In this document: piece after piece, positions 18,560-25,448 of the stretch | Numbering within the stretch: position 1 is the first letter of the stretch | Layout of the letters: each line of letters begins with the position of its first letter | DNA from: a virus | IMG/VR virus record: IMGVR_UViG_3300021963_007164 | Span: 1-25,448 of that record | Strand: one strand, 5' to 3' | DNA: 25,448 bases | The notes under the pieces: model-generated | Database searches by the model: none | Told to the model about the DNA's origin: nothing | The model's input: only the letters and a program-made list of their open reading frames with translations | Made by a program: the position numbers and the translations under genes

Positions 18560-19074
18560 TTCTTAAGCATGTAAAACCTGACAGCCCAATACTCAACCAA
18601 GTAACCGAGCAATTTAACCTTAGTAATCCTCCAACGGATCCTATTCAGCTAGCCAAGGACTTGTATGAGACCCTTATGTCAACAAAGTACCTGGGGTTAT
18701 CAGCTCCTCAAGTAGGGTTGCCATATAGAGTATTTGCTTTGAGGTCACAACCTGGTATAGTGTGTTTTAATCCACGTATTGTTGATGTATCAACAGAGGA
18801 AGTGATCCTCGATGAGATGTGTATGACGTTTGCTCACTTGGCTGTTCCTGTAAAGAGACCGAAAAAAATTAAAGTTCGTTATGCTGAACCAAATGGTAAT
18901 GTTAAAACAGAAACGTTTGACGGACTAACAGCTCGATATTTTCTTCATGAGCTTGACCATTTGAATGGAATATTGTATACTCAAAAAGCAAACAAGATGC
19001 ATGTGGAGCGCGCTATGCGCAAAAAGAAACAAATAGAAAGACAACTTAAACGGAATCAAAAGGATATAGAATGA
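18556..19074 (+). CDS. def: Peptide deformylase
   Basis: Metal-dependent enzyme that removes the formyl group from the N-terminal Met of new proteins. It has 172 aa, a full-length PDF domain. The three motifs are present: motif I G-L-S-A-P-Q (47-52, Q52), motif II with the metal ligand C89 in E-M-C-M-T, and motif III H-E-L-D-H (131-135; H131, H135 ligands, E132 catalytic). Motif II differs from the usual E-G-C-L-S. The C-terminus is a very basic tail (K-K-K-Q-I-E-R). It overlaps gp46 by 4 bases (ATGA) and lacks its own clear ribosome site, so it is probably coupled. PDF genes are known from marine phages. Confidence 0.93.
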   Translation: MILKHVKPDSPILNQVTEQFNLSNPPTDPIQLAKDLYETLMSTKYLGLSAPQVGLPYRVFALRSQPGIVCFNPRIVDVSTEEVILDEMCMTFAHLAVPVKRPKKIKVRYAEPNGNVKTETFDGLTARYFLHELDHLNGILYTQKANKMHVERAMRKKKQIERQLKRNQKDIE

Positions 19075-19829
19075 GTGTAGTTATATTTGGTAGAGGTAAG
19101 GTTGGTATGGCAACTGATCTTACGTTAAAAACGCAGGCCGACTTCCATGATCCTTTCAAGGGATTTGTTGTTGATAATTTTAGCAAATATAATATTGCAT
19201 TCATTTGTGTGTCTTCATTAGAAAGTGGGCCATTTGATCACGAAGCAATCTATAGTTGTCTGTCTACATTGGCGCGTGATAACTTTGCAGGCACAGTTGC
19301 TATTCGTTGTACTGTGTCACCTGTATTCCTTTCTGGGTGGAAGAGTCAGTTTCCGAAATTAAAAATAATCCACTTCCCTGAGTTTATGAAGCAGGGAGAT
19401 GACAATTATCTTGATACACCTTGGATCTTGGTGTTGGGTGGTGATAAAGAGTTGACAGCACCATTTGGTAAATGGTTAATCAGTCATGGTTATGGTACAG
19501 AGGATCAACTGCATCTTGTCACGCTTGAAGAGAGTGCTCTTATCAAGTTGCATCAAAATGCAGGTCTTGCATTGAAAGTTGTGTATGCAAATATTATGTA
19601 CGAGACATGCAAGTACTACGGTGCTGATTACGAGAAGGTTCGTCAAGGTGTTGCTGCTGATGTTCGTGTCGGTCCTGGTCACTTACAGGTACCTGGTGAA
19701 CATGGGTTTGGATTTGCTGGACATTGTTTACCAAAAGACCTTAGATGTCTAAACAGCGTTGCAACAAATAGAGGTTTTTGGGATAGTATACTTAAGATTA
19801 ACGAACAGTTGAGAATGAAGAATGTCTAA
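19071..19829 (+). CDS. Short UDP-glucose/GDP-mannose dehydrogenase-like protein
   Basis: Nucleotide-sugar dehydrogenase family, which oxidises a sugar C6 alcohol to a uronate with NAD. The N-terminus has a Rossmann entry, V-V-I-F-G-R-G-K-V-G-M-A (3-14, weakened glycine pattern), then F-I-C-V-S-S, H-F-P-E-F-M (sugar-site N-P-E-F relative), I-K-L-H-Q-N-A-G-L-A-L-K, and the catalytic-Cys block G-F-A-G-H-C-L-P-K-D-L with C219. It has 252 aa, whereas family members usually exceed 380, so the C-terminal nucleotide-sugar-binding domain is missing. It could be a reduced enzyme with a new substrate. It overlaps its neighbours by 4 and 8 bases. No substrate is visible. Confidence 0.75.
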   Translation: MSVVIFGRGKVGMATDLTLKTQADFHDPFKGFVVDNFSKYNIAFICVSSLESGPFDHEAIYSCLSTLARDNFAGTVAIRCTVSPVFLSGWKSQFPKLKIIHFPEFMKQGDDNYLDTPWILVLGGDKELTAPFGKWLISHGYGTEDQLHLVTLEESALIKLHQNAGLALKVVYANIMYETCKYYGADYEKVRQGVAADVRVGPGHLQVPGEHGFGFAGHCLPKDLRCLNSVATNRGFWDSILKINEQLRMKNV

Positions 19830-20730
19830 AATTGCATACAGCGAGATCTTTCACTCTATTCAAGGTGAAGGTCATTACACAGGACGCCCTACAGCATGGT
19901 TAAGATTTTTTCTGTGCAATCTTCAGTGTGATGGATTTGGTCAAAAGGATCCTACCGATCCATCTACATATGTTCTGCCATACAAAGAAATTAAGATTGA
20001 AGACATAAAGAAGCTAGAGGATCTTCCTGTATGGAAGTATGGATGCGATTCTTCTTACTCGTGGTCTGCTAAATTTAAGCATCTTCAACATAAACATACA
20101 GCAGAAGAGATATGTGATCGTATTCGTCAGTCAATGTATCATCCGACGAACCCAGAAGGTCATTTTAATAAATCTGATGGTACCATGCAGCATATGTGCT
20201 TTACAGGTGGTGAGCCAATGATGAAGCATGCACAACTTGCTGCAGTAGATATTATTGATCATTTTGCAACAGAAGGTGACTTCCCTTTGTATATGACATG
20301 GGAGACAAATGGTACACAACCTATAACAACAGATTTTGCTAATTACTTTGGTGCTGCATATCCAGGTGAAGTATTCTTCTCTGTATCACCAAAATTATTT
20401 ACAACATCGGGAGAGAAGCCAGAGGATGCTATCTGTCCAGATATAGTTAAGAGTTATGAAAATTTATCCCCTAACGGTCAATTGAAGTTTGTCGTTAGTG
20501 GGACGGAAGAATCGTGGAACGAGCTAGAGGTAACTTTAGCAAAGTTCCGTGAAGCAGGCGTGACATATCCTGTCTGGATTATGGGTGTTGGTGCAACACT
20601 CGAGGCCCAGAAGGGAACCGAAGCTGGTTATATCGGCGAAGCTAAAATTGCTACAGAAGCGTTTAAGCGTGGTTACAACTATTCCTCTCGTGTGCATGTT
20701 CACATTTGGGGTAACACAATGGGTACTTAA
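19822..20730 (+). CDS. queE: QueE-like 7-carboxy-7-deazaguanine synthase (radical SAM)
   Basis: Radical SAM enzyme turning 6-carboxytetrahydropterin into 7-carboxy-7-deazaguanine. It has 302 aa, longer than the usual QueE of about 210-230. The N-terminus has the diagnostic E-I-F-x-S-I-Q-G-E-G-x-x-x-G-R-P. Cluster cysteines are C32 and C36, while the third cysteine is displaced to C75 in G-C-D-S-S-Y-S-W, so the spacing is C-x3-C-x38-C. The insert (about 37-74) contains G-F-G-Q-K-D-P-T-D-P-S-T-Y. The SAM motif C-F-T-G-G-E-P is at 126-132. The start overlaps the upstream dehydrogenase by 8 bases. QueD-like and FolE genes lie downstream. Confidence 0.87.
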   Translation: MSKIAYSEIFHSIQGEGHYTGRPTAWLRFFLCNLQCDGFGQKDPTDPSTYVLPYKEIKIEDIKKLEDLPVWKYGCDSSYSWSAKFKHLQHKHTAEEICDRIRQSMYHPTNPEGHFNKSDGTMQHMCFTGGEPMMKHAQLAAVDIIDHFATEGDFPLYMTWETNGTQPITTDFANYFGAAYPGEVFFSVSPKLFTTSGEKPEDAICPDIVKSYENLSPNGQLKFVVSGTEESWNELEVTLAKFREAGVTYPVWIMGVGATLEAQKGTEAGYIGEAKIATEAFKRGYNYSSRVHVHIWGNTMGT

Positions 20731-20731
20731 A

Positions 20732-21265
20732 ATGAAAGAAGAATTTACATCACATCCATGGCGTTCAGCAAGGCAGTACAAATACGTATCAACGAAAGAG
20801 TATCACGACTCTTTTCCATGTGCGTATCGTCAATGGAGAGCAGACAGTCATTGCAACTTGATCCATGGATACAGTTTCTCGATGAAGTTTTACTTCGGAA
20901 CAGATAACCTCGATGCTCGTAACTGGGCAGCAGATTATGGTGGACTGAAAGATCTTAAAGGTATACTTGAAGATCAGTTTGATCATACGTTGTTAGTTGC
21001 AGAGGATGATCCTGAGCTTGAGATATACAAAGAGCTCGAGCGTCGAAAGCTTGCAAAGTTAACTATCCTTCCTAAGTTGGGATGTGAAGGTCTTGCAGAT
21101 CAACTTTACAAGTTTGTCAATGGTGTTTATATTCCTGACTATTGGGGTCCTGGTGAGGCAGAACGACTATGGTGCTTCCGTGTTGAGGTACGTGAGACCC
21201 AATCGAATATGGCTTTCCGTGAAGGTCATCGTGAGTGGAATGAAGATTTATTTGAAGGGGTTTAA
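20732..21265 (+). CDS. queD: QueD-like 6-carboxytetrahydropterin synthase (PTPS family)
   Basis: T-fold enzyme family that converts dihydroneopterin triphosphate to 6-carboxytetrahydropterin, the step before QueE. The ATG at 20732, one base after the QueE stop, gives 177 aa; an upstream in-frame ATG at 20585 lies inside queE and was rejected. The catalytic-Cys block is S-H-C-N-L-I-H-G-Y-S (C41, H45). D-Y-G-G-L-K (68-73) and F-D-H follow, then a C-terminal C-E-x-L-A and R-V-E-V-R-E-T. Of the three usual zinc histidines, the first position reads Tyr32 (C-A-Y) and the third Tyr47 (H-G-Y). The protein is therefore divergent, or uses other ligands such as H40. Confidence 0.8.
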   Translation: MKEEFTSHPWRSARQYKYVSTKEYHDSFPCAYRQWRADSHCNLIHGYSFSMKFYFGTDNLDARNWAADYGGLKDLKGILEDQFDHTLLVAEDDPELEIYKELERRKLAKLTILPKLGCEGLADQLYKFVNGVYIPDYWGPGEAERLWCFRVEVRETQSNMAFREGHREWNEDLFEGV

Positions 21266-21267
21266 TA

Positions 21268-22059
21268 ATGCAACGTATCCTTATTATGGGTCTACCAGGG
21301 TCGGGTAAAACGACTCTGGCACAAGCCTTAAAAAAACAATTAGAGTCAGTAGGTAAAGTGGTCGGTTGGCTCAATGCTGACAAAGTACGAGAAGAATACA
21401 ACGATTGGGACTTCTCAGAGGCCGGACGTATCAGGCAAGCAAAACGAATGCGTGAGATAGCTGATAGGTTTCAGCATTACGATTATGTGATTGCTGACTT
21501 CGTTGCTCCTTTGGTAGAAATGCGAAACATCTACAAAGCCGATTGGGTGATATGGATGGATACGATTCGTGAAGGACGTTACGCTGATACAAACAAAGCG
21601 TTTACTGAACCGACCATATATGATTTCAGGGTCAATGAGCAACATGCATCTAAATGGTCTATGTTCATATTTGATCATCTTATTGATAACCGTAGACGAC
21701 CTTCATTCAATTGGCAAAAAGAAACTGTTCAAATGCTAGGTCGTTGGCAGCCATGGCACGAAGGTCACAGAGCTTTGTTTGAGAGAGCAATAGCCAAAAC
21801 AGGACAAGTTGTTATTCAGATTCGTGATTGTCAAGGATGGCAAAATAGTAATCCATTTGAGATTGCAAAGGTTGAAGCCTTCATTAGAAGAGATCTTGAT
21901 CCTCTCTACCAAGGGCAATATATTATTCAAGTTGTTCCAAACATTGTTAATATTACATATGGTCGTGATGTTGGGTACAAGATTGAACAGGAAACATTTG
22001 ATAAGAGTGTTACTGATATTAGTGCGACAAAGATTAGAAAAGATTTAGGTATTGAGTAA
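21268..22059 (+). CDS. APS-kinase-like / nucleotidyltransferase fusion
   Basis: Two-domain protein, 263 aa. The N-terminal domain (1-150) is an adenylylsulfate-kinase-like P-loop kinase: Walker A G-L-P-G-S-G-K-T-T (8-16), L-N-A-D-K-V-R near 35-41, and a central A-D-F-V-A-P-L-V-E-M-R like the A-x-I-S-P-Y-x-x-x-R of APS kinases. The C-terminal domain (152-263) is a nucleotidyltransferase with G-R-W-Q-P-W-H-E-G-H (158-167, HxGH) and a terminal I-S-A-T-K-I-R (251-257). NadR has the same two activities in the opposite order with a different kinase. Substrate is unknown. The start is 2 bases after the QueD-like stop. A sulfotransferase-like gene follows one gene later. Confidence 0.82.
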   Translation: MQRILIMGLPGSGKTTLAQALKKQLESVGKVVGWLNADKVREEYNDWDFSEAGRIRQAKRMREIADRFQHYDYVIADFVAPLVEMRNIYKADWVIWMDTIREGRYADTNKAFTEPTIYDFRVNEQHASKWSMFIFDHLIDNRRRPSFNWQKETVQMLGRWQPWHEGHRALFERAIAKTGQVVIQIRDCQGWQNSNPFEIAKVEAFIRRDLDPLYQGQYIIQVVPNIVNITYGRDVGYKIEQETFDKSVTDISATKIRKDLGIE

Positions 22060-22061
22060 TC

Positions 22062-22265
22062 ATGTTCCAACAGTTTAAGTGGGTACCGGATGGTACCTAC
22101 GATTATGAAGATTACTTGGTTCGTTATCAAATTGTTAACGGTAACTCAACAAGAGTTATATCTAAGATGTGGATTGATATCGGTGGGCCCGATGATGTGT
22201 CTGATGAATTGAGACAACCATGGGGCACATTTCCTAACTTTCCTCCAAAGCCAGCAAAAAAATGA
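22062..22265 (+). CDS. Small hypothetical protein
   Basis: A 67-aa protein I do not recognise. It is aromatic-rich and acidic in the middle (D-Y-E-D-Y), contains M-W-I-D-I-G-G-P-D-D, and ends in a Pro/Lys tail. No membrane segment or metal motif is visible. The ribosome site is weak (GAG). It is placed 2 bases after the kinase fusion and overlaps the sulfotransferase-like gene by 4 bases (ATGA), so coding status is supported mainly by packing and composition. Confidence 0.6.
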   Translation: MFQQFKWVPDGTYDYEDYLVRYQIVNGNSTRVISKMWIDIGGPDDVSDELRQPWGTFPNFPPKPAKK

Positions 22266-22852
22266 TAGTATGTGCAACTCCCCGTTCAGGTGGTACTGTA
22301 TTTGGATTTGATAAGGCAAAGGAGCTAGGTATTCCTTTTCTCAATGAGGTCGTTCCTGGAAACACGGAACCGTTTCAATTTAGAACGACATGGAAAAACA
22401 AATATCACGAGTTACCTTGTCAGCCTATTATTACGACACAGACTCTTTTTGATGTAAGTGCATATCCAGAGTCGGAGTCATTTGTTGTTCTTGTTAATGG
22501 AACAAACAGTCATTGGCTTTTTCATAAGGCAGATTGGTTTGTTGCTCGACGAAACATTAGAGAGTGGCTATTCTCTGTTTGTAACTTTTGGATAAAGAAC
22601 AGACAAGGGAAAATGAGTTTGGATTTAATTCAAACCTATCTTATCTTTACTATAGAGAACGGATATGCTTTGTATGCATATTGCAAATCACATGATACAA
22701 ATATTTTGTGGTATGAGGATATGTATTACAGAAAGAATGATTACAAAGATTTGTTCAATCATCCAGACAGACGACAAATTATACTAATTATAGATTACTT
22801 AGTCGAACAAACAAAAATACTTGACACTAATAAACATTTGGTGTACACTTAA
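22262..22852 (+). CDS. Sulfotransferase-like P-loop protein
   Basis: A 196-aa protein with the two PAPS-binding signatures of sulfotransferases. The N-terminal strand-loop C-A-T-P-R-S-G-G-T (4-12) resembles the 5'-phosphosulfate loop. A later R-R-N-I-R-E-W-L-F-S (96-105), with Arg and Ser at the expected spacing, resembles the 3'-phosphate loop. It is short compared with typical members (250 or more). A C-terminal L-W-Y-E-D-M segment recalls the family's x-Y-E-D/E strand. It starts at the ATGA overlap with the preceding small gene. An APS-kinase-like gene lies just upstream, which would fit supply of PAPS. The acceptor is unknown. Confidence 0.68.
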   Translation: MIVCATPRSGGTVFGFDKAKELGIPFLNEVVPGNTEPFQFRTTWKNKYHELPCQPIITTQTLFDVSAYPESESFVVLVNGTNSHWLFHKADWFVARRNIREWLFSVCNFWIKNRQGKMSLDLIQTYLIFTIENGYALYAYCKSHDTNILWYEDMYYRKNDYKDLFNHPDRRQIILIIDYLVEQTKILDTNKHLVYT

Positions 22853-22871
22853 ATATTTACAAGGAGCCTTT

Positions 22872-23546
22872 ATGGAAAAGACGGATGCAGTTTTGGGTGC
22901 GCTAGTGCACGAACACCTTTTGAAAGTTGGTCTTGAGACGCCAATGAATTATGAACAAGTTCAAGTAAAAGATGAAAAGAAAATTAAAAATATTGCAAAG
23001 CACTTTACTGCAATTATGGAGGAGCTGGGGTTAGATCTTACCGATGACTCCTTGATTGATACTCCTAACCGTGTTGCTAAGATGTATACTCGTGAGATCT
23101 TTCTTGGTTTAAACTATGACAACTTTCCTAAGTGTACAAAGATTGAAAACAAGATGGGAGAGAGCAGCAGTTTTGTTCTTGAGCGTAACATCAACGTTCA
23201 GTCCAATTGTGAGCACCACTTTGTTGTGATTGATGGTAAGGCCACTGTTGCTTATATTCCAAAAAAGACCATTCTCGGTTTGTCTAAGCTGAATCGTATT
23301 GTTCAGTTTTTCTCAAAGCGTCCTCAAGTGCAAGAGCGTTTGACTGAGCAGATTGCAGAAACGATTAGTTTTATTACAGGATCAGATGATGTTGCTGTAT
23401 ACATCGAAGGCGTTCACTATTGTGTTAAATCGCGAGGAATTCAGGATGTTACATCTTCGACAATGACATTGGCTACACGCGGTGCCTTCGCAACTATTAA
23501 CTCAGAGCTCCGTCGCGAGTTTTTAAATTCTGCACGCATGAAATGA
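22872..23546 (+). CDS. folE: GTP cyclohydrolase I (FolE)
   Basis: Converts GTP to 7,8-dihydroneopterin triphosphate, the first step of both folate and 7-deazaguanine synthesis. I chose the ATG at 22872 because an AAGGAG site lies just upstream. The longer in-frame ATG at 22821 is inside the preceding gene. It has 224 aa, full length. Zinc ligands are C113 and H116 (N-C-E-H-H) and C184 (H-Y-C-V-K-S-R-G). The conserved G-L-S-K-L-N-R-I-V-Q-F-F-S-K-R-P-Q-V-Q-E-R-L-T block is complete. With QueD-like and QueE genes nearby, the likely end product is a deazaguanine rather than folate. Confidence 0.95.
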   Translation: MEKTDAVLGALVHEHLLKVGLETPMNYEQVQVKDEKKIKNIAKHFTAIMEELGLDLTDDSLIDTPNRVAKMYTREIFLGLNYDNFPKCTKIENKMGESSSFVLERNINVQSNCEHHFVVIDGKATVAYIPKKTILGLSKLNRIVQFFSKRPQVQERLTEQIAETISFITGSDDVAVYIEGVHYCVKSRGIQDVTSSTMTLATRGAFATINSELRREFLNSARMK

Positions 23547-24097
23547 TACCATTCAAGCATTTAGATTGGGATGAGCCGTTTGATAGTTACACAAAAGAAC
23601 TTCAACGGTTTATCCAATCAACTGGGCTTGTAGAAAAGGGTACGTTCTTCAATCCCATAGGTGCTGCACGTGTCTATGAAGCAATACCTAGCCTCAAAGA
23701 TTTGTTTGTTCGTCACAACCTAACAGACTTCCACTCAATGGCTGTTATAAGAGTATTGCCAGCAAGCGTTGCTCCTAACTTTCCTCATACAGATGTAATG
23801 CCGAATCCAGATCAAAAGATTGCTCTCAACTGGCCTGTATTTAATTGTGAGGATACTTACACAGCGTTCTATGAAGAGAAGAGTGATGCTAATCCCGAGC
23901 TTGTTAAGCTATCAAATGGATTGCCATACAAAAAATACAAGTACAGCGATGTAGTCGAGACTCATAGAATAAAAATTAACTTGCCAACCGCTATTAGATA
24001 TGATATACTTCATGCGGTCGTAAACGAAACGGAAAGAGTTAGGATAACTGCTTCATTCAGGTTTGTGTCTAATCATTGGGAGCTGTTTAATGGCTAA
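23543..24097 (+). CDS. 2OG-Fe(II) oxygenase-like double-stranded beta-helix protein
   Basis: A 184-aa protein with the metal triad pattern of Fe(II)/2-oxoglutarate dioxygenases: H82-T-D84 in F-P-H-T-D, then a distal H157 in D-I-L-H-A-V-V-N, and R167 at a fit distance to bind 2-oxoglutarate (R-V-R-I-T). The segment A-L-N-W-P-V-F-N-C-E-D-T-Y-T-A-F-Y lies between, as in many marine phage proteins annotated as 2OG oxygenases. The substrate is unknown. It overlaps folE by 4 bases, so it may act in the same pathway, for example on a modified base or nucleotide, but this is inference. The C-terminus overlaps the next gene. Confidence 0.65.
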   Translation: MIPFKHLDWDEPFDSYTKELQRFIQSTGLVEKGTFFNPIGAARVYEAIPSLKDLFVRHNLTDFHSMAVIRVLPASVAPNFPHTDVMPNPDQKIALNWPVFNCEDTYTAFYEEKSDANPELVKLSNGLPYKKYKYSDVVETHRIKINLPTAIRYDILHAVVNETERVRITASFRFVSNHWELFNG

Positions 24098-24482
24098 AGT
24101 GTATTTTTGTAAATTTACTGATAAGAAAACTGGTAAGTTTTTTTATAAGTTTGGACACACAACAAAAAGTGATGTGTTAGAAAGATTCGATGTAAAGTAT
24201 GATGCACGTTACGGAGAATTTCACATTAAAGCGATCTGTAGTATTTGGGGTGATATAAGTTGGTGCCAGGATGTAGAGGAAGTATACAAGGCAAGATATC
24301 CTAAAAATATTTGGCTTGAGGATTTTTTTGGTGATGATCGTAAGTGGGATAATTTTTCTGGTATCACGGAAATTGTTTATATGGATGACCTAACATACAA
24401 GTGGGCGGTGAAATCATTTTACCAATTGAAAGAATCGCAAGATAAAGTTTATAAACGAAAAGAAAGTAACTATGGAAAGTAA
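24090..24482 (+). CDS. Small protein, possible GIY-YIG/T5orf172-like domain
   Basis: A 130-aa protein. The ATG at 24090 has a GGGAG site seven bases upstream, and an earlier in-frame ATG (24063) lies inside the previous gene. V-Y-F-C-K-F near the start and F-Y-K-F-G-H-T-T-K-S-D-V-L-E-R-F resemble the strand-and-K-x-G-x-T pattern of GIY-YIG-related T5orf172 domains. A second half contains E-E-V-Y-K-A-R-Y-P and ends basic. The GIY-YIG call is weak because the G-I-Y motif is not exact. It overlaps its neighbours by 8 and 11 bases. Confidence 0.6.
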   Translation: MAKVYFCKFTDKKTGKFFYKFGHTTKSDVLERFDVKYDARYGEFHIKAICSIWGDISWCQDVEEVYKARYPKNIWLEDFFGDDRKWDNFSGITEIVYMDDLTYKWAVKSFYQLKESQDKVYKRKESNYGK

Positions 24483-24882
24483 AAGTTTTATTTGGGTGAC
24501 GTTTCAGAAAGAAGGTATTCACAAATACCCAGCAGCTGCTACAGATCCAACGCTTGCTACAGGTGACTGGTTAGATGTCAGCTTCCTTGGAACACCACAC
24601 CGACACATCTTTCATTTTCGAGTAGAAATGGAAGTGTTCCATGATAATAGAGATGTTGAGTTTATTCAGTTTAAACGTTGGCTTGAAAGTTGGTATGCAG
24701 ATGGTACACTTTCTTTAGACTACAAGTCGTGTGAAATGATGTCTAAGGATCTATATAGTAAAGTGATTGAAAAATGGCCTGGTCGTGATTATGTGATTGA
24801 AGTATCTGAAGATGGTGAGAATGGATGTCGCATGTACTTCCCCAGTAAAGATGAACTTAGTTGGAAAATTTATAATGCTTAA
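24472..24882 (+). CDS. Second T-fold (QueD/PTPS-like) protein lacking catalytic Cys
   Basis: A 136-aa protein that I read as a T-fold relative of QueD. The first zinc ligand is H17 in F-x4-I-H-K-Y-P (compare A-A-H-R-L-P). The pair H43 and H45 is in P-H-R-H-I-F-H-F-R-V-E (compare H-G-H-x-F). D-V-E-F-I-Q-F-K-R-W-L matches the D-F-x-x-L-K helix, and S-C-E (compare P-T-x-E) precedes L-Y-x-K-V and V-I-E-V-S-E-D. The Cys four residues before the first H of HxH is absent (L39). It therefore keeps the zinc triad but loses the catalytic Cys. It overlaps the next gene by 8 bases. The fold call is from pattern, not alignment. Confidence 0.6.
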   Translation: MESKSFIWVTFQKEGIHKYPAAATDPTLATGDWLDVSFLGTPHRHIFHFRVEMEVFHDNRDVEFIQFKRWLESWYADGTLSLDYKSCEMMSKDLYSKVIEKWPGRDYVIEVSEDGENGCRMYFPSKDELSWKIYNA

Positions 24883-25448
24883 TTTTTGTCATATCTCTCC
24901 TACAGCATATTTGCAAAGATACACCAATACGAATGGTGCTCATCTATTGCTAGCTCATCTTGTCGAAGAAGATCCGGAGTACCGTGATTACTATGCTAAT
25001 CTCGATGATGGCAAGTATAAGATTATGGACAATAGTGCATTTGAGATGTTCAAGCTCGGTCGTGATATGTACGAATCGGATAAGCTAATTGAAATGGGCA
25101 CTGCATGTAAAGCGGATTGTATTGTTCTATCTGATTATCCAAAGCAACACTCTCAACGTACGACAGACGCAGCAAAGAGGCTGATCCCTGAATTCAAAGC
25201 TGCAGGGTTTGATACATTTTTTGTTCCACAAAGCAATCTTGGTGATATGAACGATTATGTCAACTGCATTGAGTGGGGATTGGCACACGAGTCAATTGAT
25301 TTGATTGGATTGTCTATTTTAGGTGCACCTATTGCGTGTGGTGTTGATGAGTCAACGTTTGAGGGTGGTAAGCGTAGTGATGCATATAAGATGCAACGTT
25401 ATCTCTCTCGTTTGAACGTCTTTAGAGAGCTTGAGAAACGTAAACTAC
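24875..25448 (+). CDS. dpdA: DpdA/TGT-like 7-deazaguanine transglycosylase, 3'-truncated by window edge
   Basis: Open reading frame from ATG 24875 to the window end (191 codons), continuing beyond. The pattern fits the tRNA-guanine transglycosylase superfamily, in its phage DNA-modifying DpdA branch: I-M-D-N-S-A-F-E (50-57, D52; compare D-S-G-G-F-Q in TGT), A-D-C-I-V-L-S-D-Y-P (80-89, D87), then F-F-V-P-Q-S-N, and D-L-I-G-L-S-I-L-G-A-P. DpdA proteins exchange guanine in DNA for a deazaguanine. The N-terminal L-L-L-A-H-L-V segment is also typical. It overlaps the T-fold gene by 8 bases. The zinc-binding region would lie past the edge, so the family call is not fully testable here. Confidence 0.72.
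   Translation, partial: MLNFCHISPTAYLQRYTNTNGAHLLLAHLVEEDPEYRDYYANLDDGKYKIMDNSAFEMFKLGRDMYESDKLIEMGTACKADCIVLSDYPKQHSQRTTDAAKRLIPEFKAAGFDTFFVPQSNLGDMNDYVNCIEWGLAHESIDLIGLSILGAPIACGVDESTFEGGKRSDAYKMQRYLSRLNVFRELEKRKL

Follow-up and report, generated by a model that had tools for sequence, protein, structure and literature searches.

A QueC-less phage 7-deazaguanine gene cassette with a QueD-like T-fold protein as candidate CDG decarboxylase

The window and its gene cassette

The stretch of DNA analysed here (the window) has a length of 25,448 bases and is the complete viral contig of a T4-like myovirus, with terminase, sheath, portal, scaffold and major head protein. Near its right end are the genes for QueE, protein A, a kinase, FolE and protein B, and a DpdA-like gene, D, begins there as well. 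The QueE-like radical SAM enzyme, which makes 7-carboxy-7-deazaguanine (CDG), is encoded at 19822..20730 on the plus strand and was identified by phrog_2076 (QueE-like, E 4.9e-51). The genes for protein A, FolE, protein B and D lie on the same strand. Protein A (20732..21265) is an HGY-type QueD (6-carboxytetrahydropterin synthase-like), assigned from Pfam PTPS, phrog_2389, a structure model and a family motif. FolE, GTP cyclohydrolase I (22872..23546), was identified by Pfam (4.4e-57) and by NCBIfam above the cut-off. Protein B (24472..24882) is a QueD-like T-fold protein and candidate CDG decarboxylase, characterized by phrog_17812, AlphaFold2, Foldseek and residue invariance. Gene D (24878..25448, truncated by the window end) encodes a putative DpdA-like transglycosylase of family D, placed by a weak profile match to phage DpdA. 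These genes are best explained as a QueC-less phage cassette for 7-deazaguanine modification of DNA, and the virus seems to exchange the guanine of its DNA for another base.

A UDP-glucose/GDP-mannose dehydrogenase-like gene at window positions 19071-19829 adjoins QueE; a gene noted as sugar dehydrogenase-like also lies near QueE in Campylobacter phage CP220. An ORF between QueD and FolE (22262-22852) starts with CATPRSGGT, which we take to be reminiscent of a sulfotransferase P-loop; Pfam and PHROG searches gave no family match for it.

Protein A and the HGY-type QueD subfamily

Protein A begins with an ATG at 20732, has its stop ending at 21265 and is 177 aa long. It matches Pfam PTPS (E 7.6e-13, 48.9 bits against a cut-off of 22.4) and phrog_2389 (QueD-like, E 1.3e-36), and Foldseek links its structure model to 3jyg and E. 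coli QueD. A preliminary description had noted Cys41 in this QueD-like protein and tyrosines at 32 and 47, and alignment with canonical QueD bears this out: C41 stands at the catalytic Cys position, H45 and Y47 at the first and second His of HGH, and Y32 takes the place of the upstream zinc His, while D84, H85 and E155 are kept. Protein A retains the T-fold, catalytic Cys, Asp-His pair and Glu of QueD / PTPS-I (E. coli QueD, 4NTK), but carries CxxxHGY where the published motif is CxxxHGH (PMC5041015); only H45 of the three canonical zinc histidines is present, and this holds family-wide. For the NCBIfam QueD equivalog TIGR03367 it scores 32.3 bits, below the cut-off of 89.25, as do cellular HGY proteins.

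The subfamily was characterized from 198 aligned A-type relatives drawn from phages and cells. C41, H45, G46, Y47, D84 and H85 are invariant in 198/198 sequences, and E155 is found in 197, the remaining one having a gap. Position 32 is Y in 106, F in 81, H in 4 and another residue in 7. Judged from the alignment, in which all 198 rows share it, HGY is the signature of a large QueD subfamily, and the tyrosines of protein A would be no damage. Seeing HGY as normal for this subfamily keeps many alphaproteobacterial, archaeal and phage QueD genes from being called defective.

Chromosomal members occur in Bradyrhizobium, Microvirga, Caulobacter, Maricaulis, Phenylobacterium and marine group II archaea. 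In six genomes (Maricaulis alexandrii, M. parjimensis, a Caulobacter MAG and three of marine group II) the HGY protein is the only PTPS-family match; QueC is present in 6/6 of these and TGT in 5/6, with no B involved. With HGY-type QueD as the sole PTPS-family match in these genomes, alongside QueC and usually TGT, the simplest reading of the gene context is that it works as QueD alone. In the window, protein A is encoded next to QueE. A different reaction or another metal set, for example with H40 as substitute ligand, would account for the replacement of two canonical ligands throughout the subfamily and for the presence of H40 in 196/198 sequences. We regard this as improbable, given that the subfamily keeps the catalytic Cys, Asp, His and Glu and that QueC adjoins the HGY gene in the three marine group II archaeal genomes. 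The QueD of phage 9g, which complements E. coli queD (PMC6884629), was dropped as proof that HGY functions because its motif is HGH-type. Some Microvirga and relatives (G046-G050, G074, G075) carry HGY-type QueD and TGT without a QueC match at the threshold used.

Protein B and its relation to protein A

Protein B (24472-24882) consists of 136 aa and matches only phrog_17812 (function unknown; E 5.1e-31), with no Pfam match above cut-off and no usable NCBIfam match. Copper amine oxidase was discarded as an identity, the Pfam score of 15 bits being below cut-off and attributed to chance. The AlphaFold2 model, built from 31 viral sequences, has a pLDDT of 91.6 and the strand/helix order EEHHEE of a T-fold. 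Among PDB structures, E. coli QueD (4ntk; Foldseek E 1.2e-4, prob 1.00, TM 0.61-0.74) scores best against it, in agreement with the T-fold first suggested for this protein. B also matches the BFVD viral models A0A6J5LEZ6 and A0A8S5V119, named alcohol dehydrogenase and AAA domain.

In a single profile comparison with HGH-type QueD (E 7.8e-5), H17 of B aligns with the upstream zinc His, H43 and H45 with HGH, and E113 with the Glu that binds the base. The profile of B also picks up QueD from phage Erebus (E 4.4e-4). Among 169 distinct B sequences, H17/H43/H45 are kept in 168/168 and C87/E88/E113 in 169/169, and the three histidines are a probable zinc triad. There is no Cys four residues before H43, where an invariant Leu39 stands, so that the apparent triad and the missing QueD-type Cys of the preliminary description both hold. 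B shares with QueD / PTPS-I (E. coli QueD, 4NTK) the T-fold, a His3 pattern and a Glu at the base-binding position, but differs in that neither the catalytic Cys nor the Asp-His (LDH) pair is conserved, position 84 being Y, H or F, and in its invariant SCE motif at helix 2 (C87-E88) and EDGE motif (E113-D114).

Relatives of B are encoded on at least 591 viral-contig stretches; a viral-contig search with the B of phiST gave no relatives. In some genomes B is the C-terminal part of a larger protein (L171:5467-6348; L396:3230-4381). It follows a stretch resembling an HNH endonuclease in phage MA9V-3 and 260 aa of unknown type in Bakedbeans.

It had been proposed that protein A is incomplete and rescued by B in a mixed T-fold oligomer, with the Cys from A and the zinc site from B restoring one QueD activity. 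The idea draws on the location of T-fold active sites at subunit interfaces, established for PTPS/QueD, and on the many loci that hold both A and B, yet a survey of phage genomes found each without the other. HGY QueD occurs without B in six QueC-carrying phages (Erebus, R5C, RHEph04, ART, Pan1 and PhiXhv-15; HGY motif read directly), and in several QueC-carrying genomes it is the sole PTPS-family match. Conversely, B stands alongside a complete HGH-type QueD in Bakedbeans and both HGH and HGY copies in PA5oct, and in D479 and Roos B is present with no PTPS-family match found. No joint active site of A and B is therefore required, and a shared pathway explains their co-occurrence. On these grounds the mixed oligomer was rejected, and we consider it most improbable, although the two proteins may still make contact.

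Gene context and proposed role of protein B

Canonical QueC (7-cyano-7-deazaguanine synthase) is absent from 13/13 complete named phages with B, and gives a strong match in 12/13 named phages that carry 7-deazaguanine genes without B, Mendera being the weak one (Fisher p 2.7e-6, relatedness ignored). This sample includes the near-identical phi13:1 and phiST, and its phages with and without B came from different searches. QueC was likewise not found in any of 178 unique B loci; the counts of loci and phages include related genomes, and virus contigs may be fragments. The QueC search left a sub-threshold trace in phage X1. In D479, a divergent QueC-like protein with an SGIDS motif and C(x)6CxxCxxC spacing is encoded about 100 kb from B. 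The QueC signature is SGGxDS with C(x)8CxxCxxC (PMC13329287), and from these motifs the D479 gene, with SGIDS and the wrong Cys spacing, was judged non-canonical. Campylobacter phage CP220 was set aside as a carrier of B, which is absent there; QueC is present instead.

B seems to stand in for QueC, which is near-absent when B is present. B is encoded together with FolE/QueE, and QueE is found in 12/13 of the named phages with B. With QueE present and QueC absent, the product available to B would be CDG; B probably acts on this QueC substrate. Among the phage genes B occupies the QueC step, after CDG synthesis and before DpdA; the two folds are unrelated, and QueC needs ATP and ammonia. In Faecalibacterium phage Roos (L170:6022-7890), B is accompanied by a YhhQ-like transporter (Pfam Vut_1) and a TGT-like gene, a gene set that is possibly a salvage version of the pathway.

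The gene directly after B had been called DpdA-like, and this stands in a weak form. Gene D starts at 24878, inside the stop of B (24878-24882 overlap). Its family profile matches phage DpdA weakly (hhalign E 1.1e-5, prob 82), its sequence has no match among PDB TGT, its comparison with DpdA2 is not significant, and together with motifs the profile match weakly suggests a DpdA-like protein. B nearly always adjoins one DpdA-type transglycosylase. Family D occurs in 47 of the 178 unique loci, DpdA2 in 31 and a DSGGYQ type in 84; none was found in 16, and no locus (0 of 178) has two of these families. D is the sole putative transglycosylase of its cassette, never accompanied in B loci by DpdA2 or the DSGGYQ type. 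The distance to B is at most 300 bp for D in 41/47 loci and for DpdA2 in 30/31. The DpdA2 assignment was made because the neighbour of B is 31% identical to a VH7D protein encoded between folE and a reductase gene, the position of DpdA2 in KVP40 (PMC8056088). The DSGGYQ family (L221:6175-7734), unannotated and about 520 aa in length, comprises transglycosylases related to DpdA2 by profile comparison (E 3.9e-9) and has no Pfam or PHROG match. All three families are related to the phage DpdA and DpdA2 of Hutinet et al. 2019 (PMC6884629), D tentatively so, being short (about 285 aa) and only weakly similar to phage DpdA.

B stays constant beside a changing DpdA, as expected for an enzyme setting which base DpdA receives. 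Its near-constant place next to a DpdA-type gene, whichever family is present, would also suit a protein that binds CDG and serves that DpdA as carrier or specificity subunit without being an enzyme, with CDG itself entering DNA as dCDG, reportedly described as a phage base in 2023. We consider such a non-catalytic role fairly unlikely, as three His, one Cys and acidic residues are strictly conserved in B, a pattern that looks catalytic.

For B as an enzyme, the following pathway is proposed. FolE, protein A (as a complete HGY-subfamily QueD) and QueE would convert GTP to CDG, which B, a QueD-derived T-fold, would take instead of QueC. The conserved T-fold Glu (E113) would hold the base, and a metal at H17/H43/H45 would handle the C7 carboxylate. 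B would then most likely remove CO2 from CDG to give 7-deazaguanine, and the adjacent DpdA-type protein would swap this product for guanine in the phage DNA. No ATP-site motif was seen in B, and a QueC-type amidation is therefore unlikely. Decarboxylation needs no cosubstrate, and it would be the simplest chemistry for a base-binding T-fold that receives CDG, has a probable His3 metal site and shows no trace of an ATP site. That the cassette uses B as a CDG decarboxylase giving 7-deazaguanine, with substrate, reaction and final base as outlined, we put at about an even chance. Against it stand Roos, which has B yet no QueE or PTPS found, the chance that hosts may supply QueC, the divergent QueC-like gene elsewhere in D479, and the tentative nature of the DpdA assignment of D. 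A CDG decarboxylase, DpdL, was reportedly predicted by Cui et al. in NAR in 2023, with dDG and dCDG reportedly found in phages; its inferred substrate and reaction would be the same as those proposed for B, which may belong to the DpdL family.

Should B decarboxylate CDG, or use CDG in another way as a T-fold, it would fill a gap in the QueC-less cassettes of many aquatic phages, would let DNA of the dDG or dCDG type be recognized from sequence, and would add another reaction of the T-fold on the same family of molecules. More speculatively, and with the balance against it, B may found a new enzyme class: a QueD T-fold that has come to process CDG in a large set of phages, most of them aquatic. 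It would pair with one of three transglycosylases and, in two of the layouts, with a glycosyltransferase-like gene as well, giving undescribed 7-deazaguanine-type DNA bases, possibly sugar-bearing.

That glycosyltransferase-like family is found in 122/131 B loci of the DpdA2 and DSGGYQ layouts, where B might make or tailor a CDG-derived base that is then decorated further. As a general account of B this has only a small chance of being right: the family occurs in 0/47 loci of the window's own layout (D), is missing from 8/13 named phages with B, and is present in one QueC-carrying phage without B. The last two counts also led to its rejection as an exclusive partner of B. Examples of these genes, which may point to a sugar-bearing modified base, lie at L206:8574-9746, L042:6377-7546 and L163:6963-7988.
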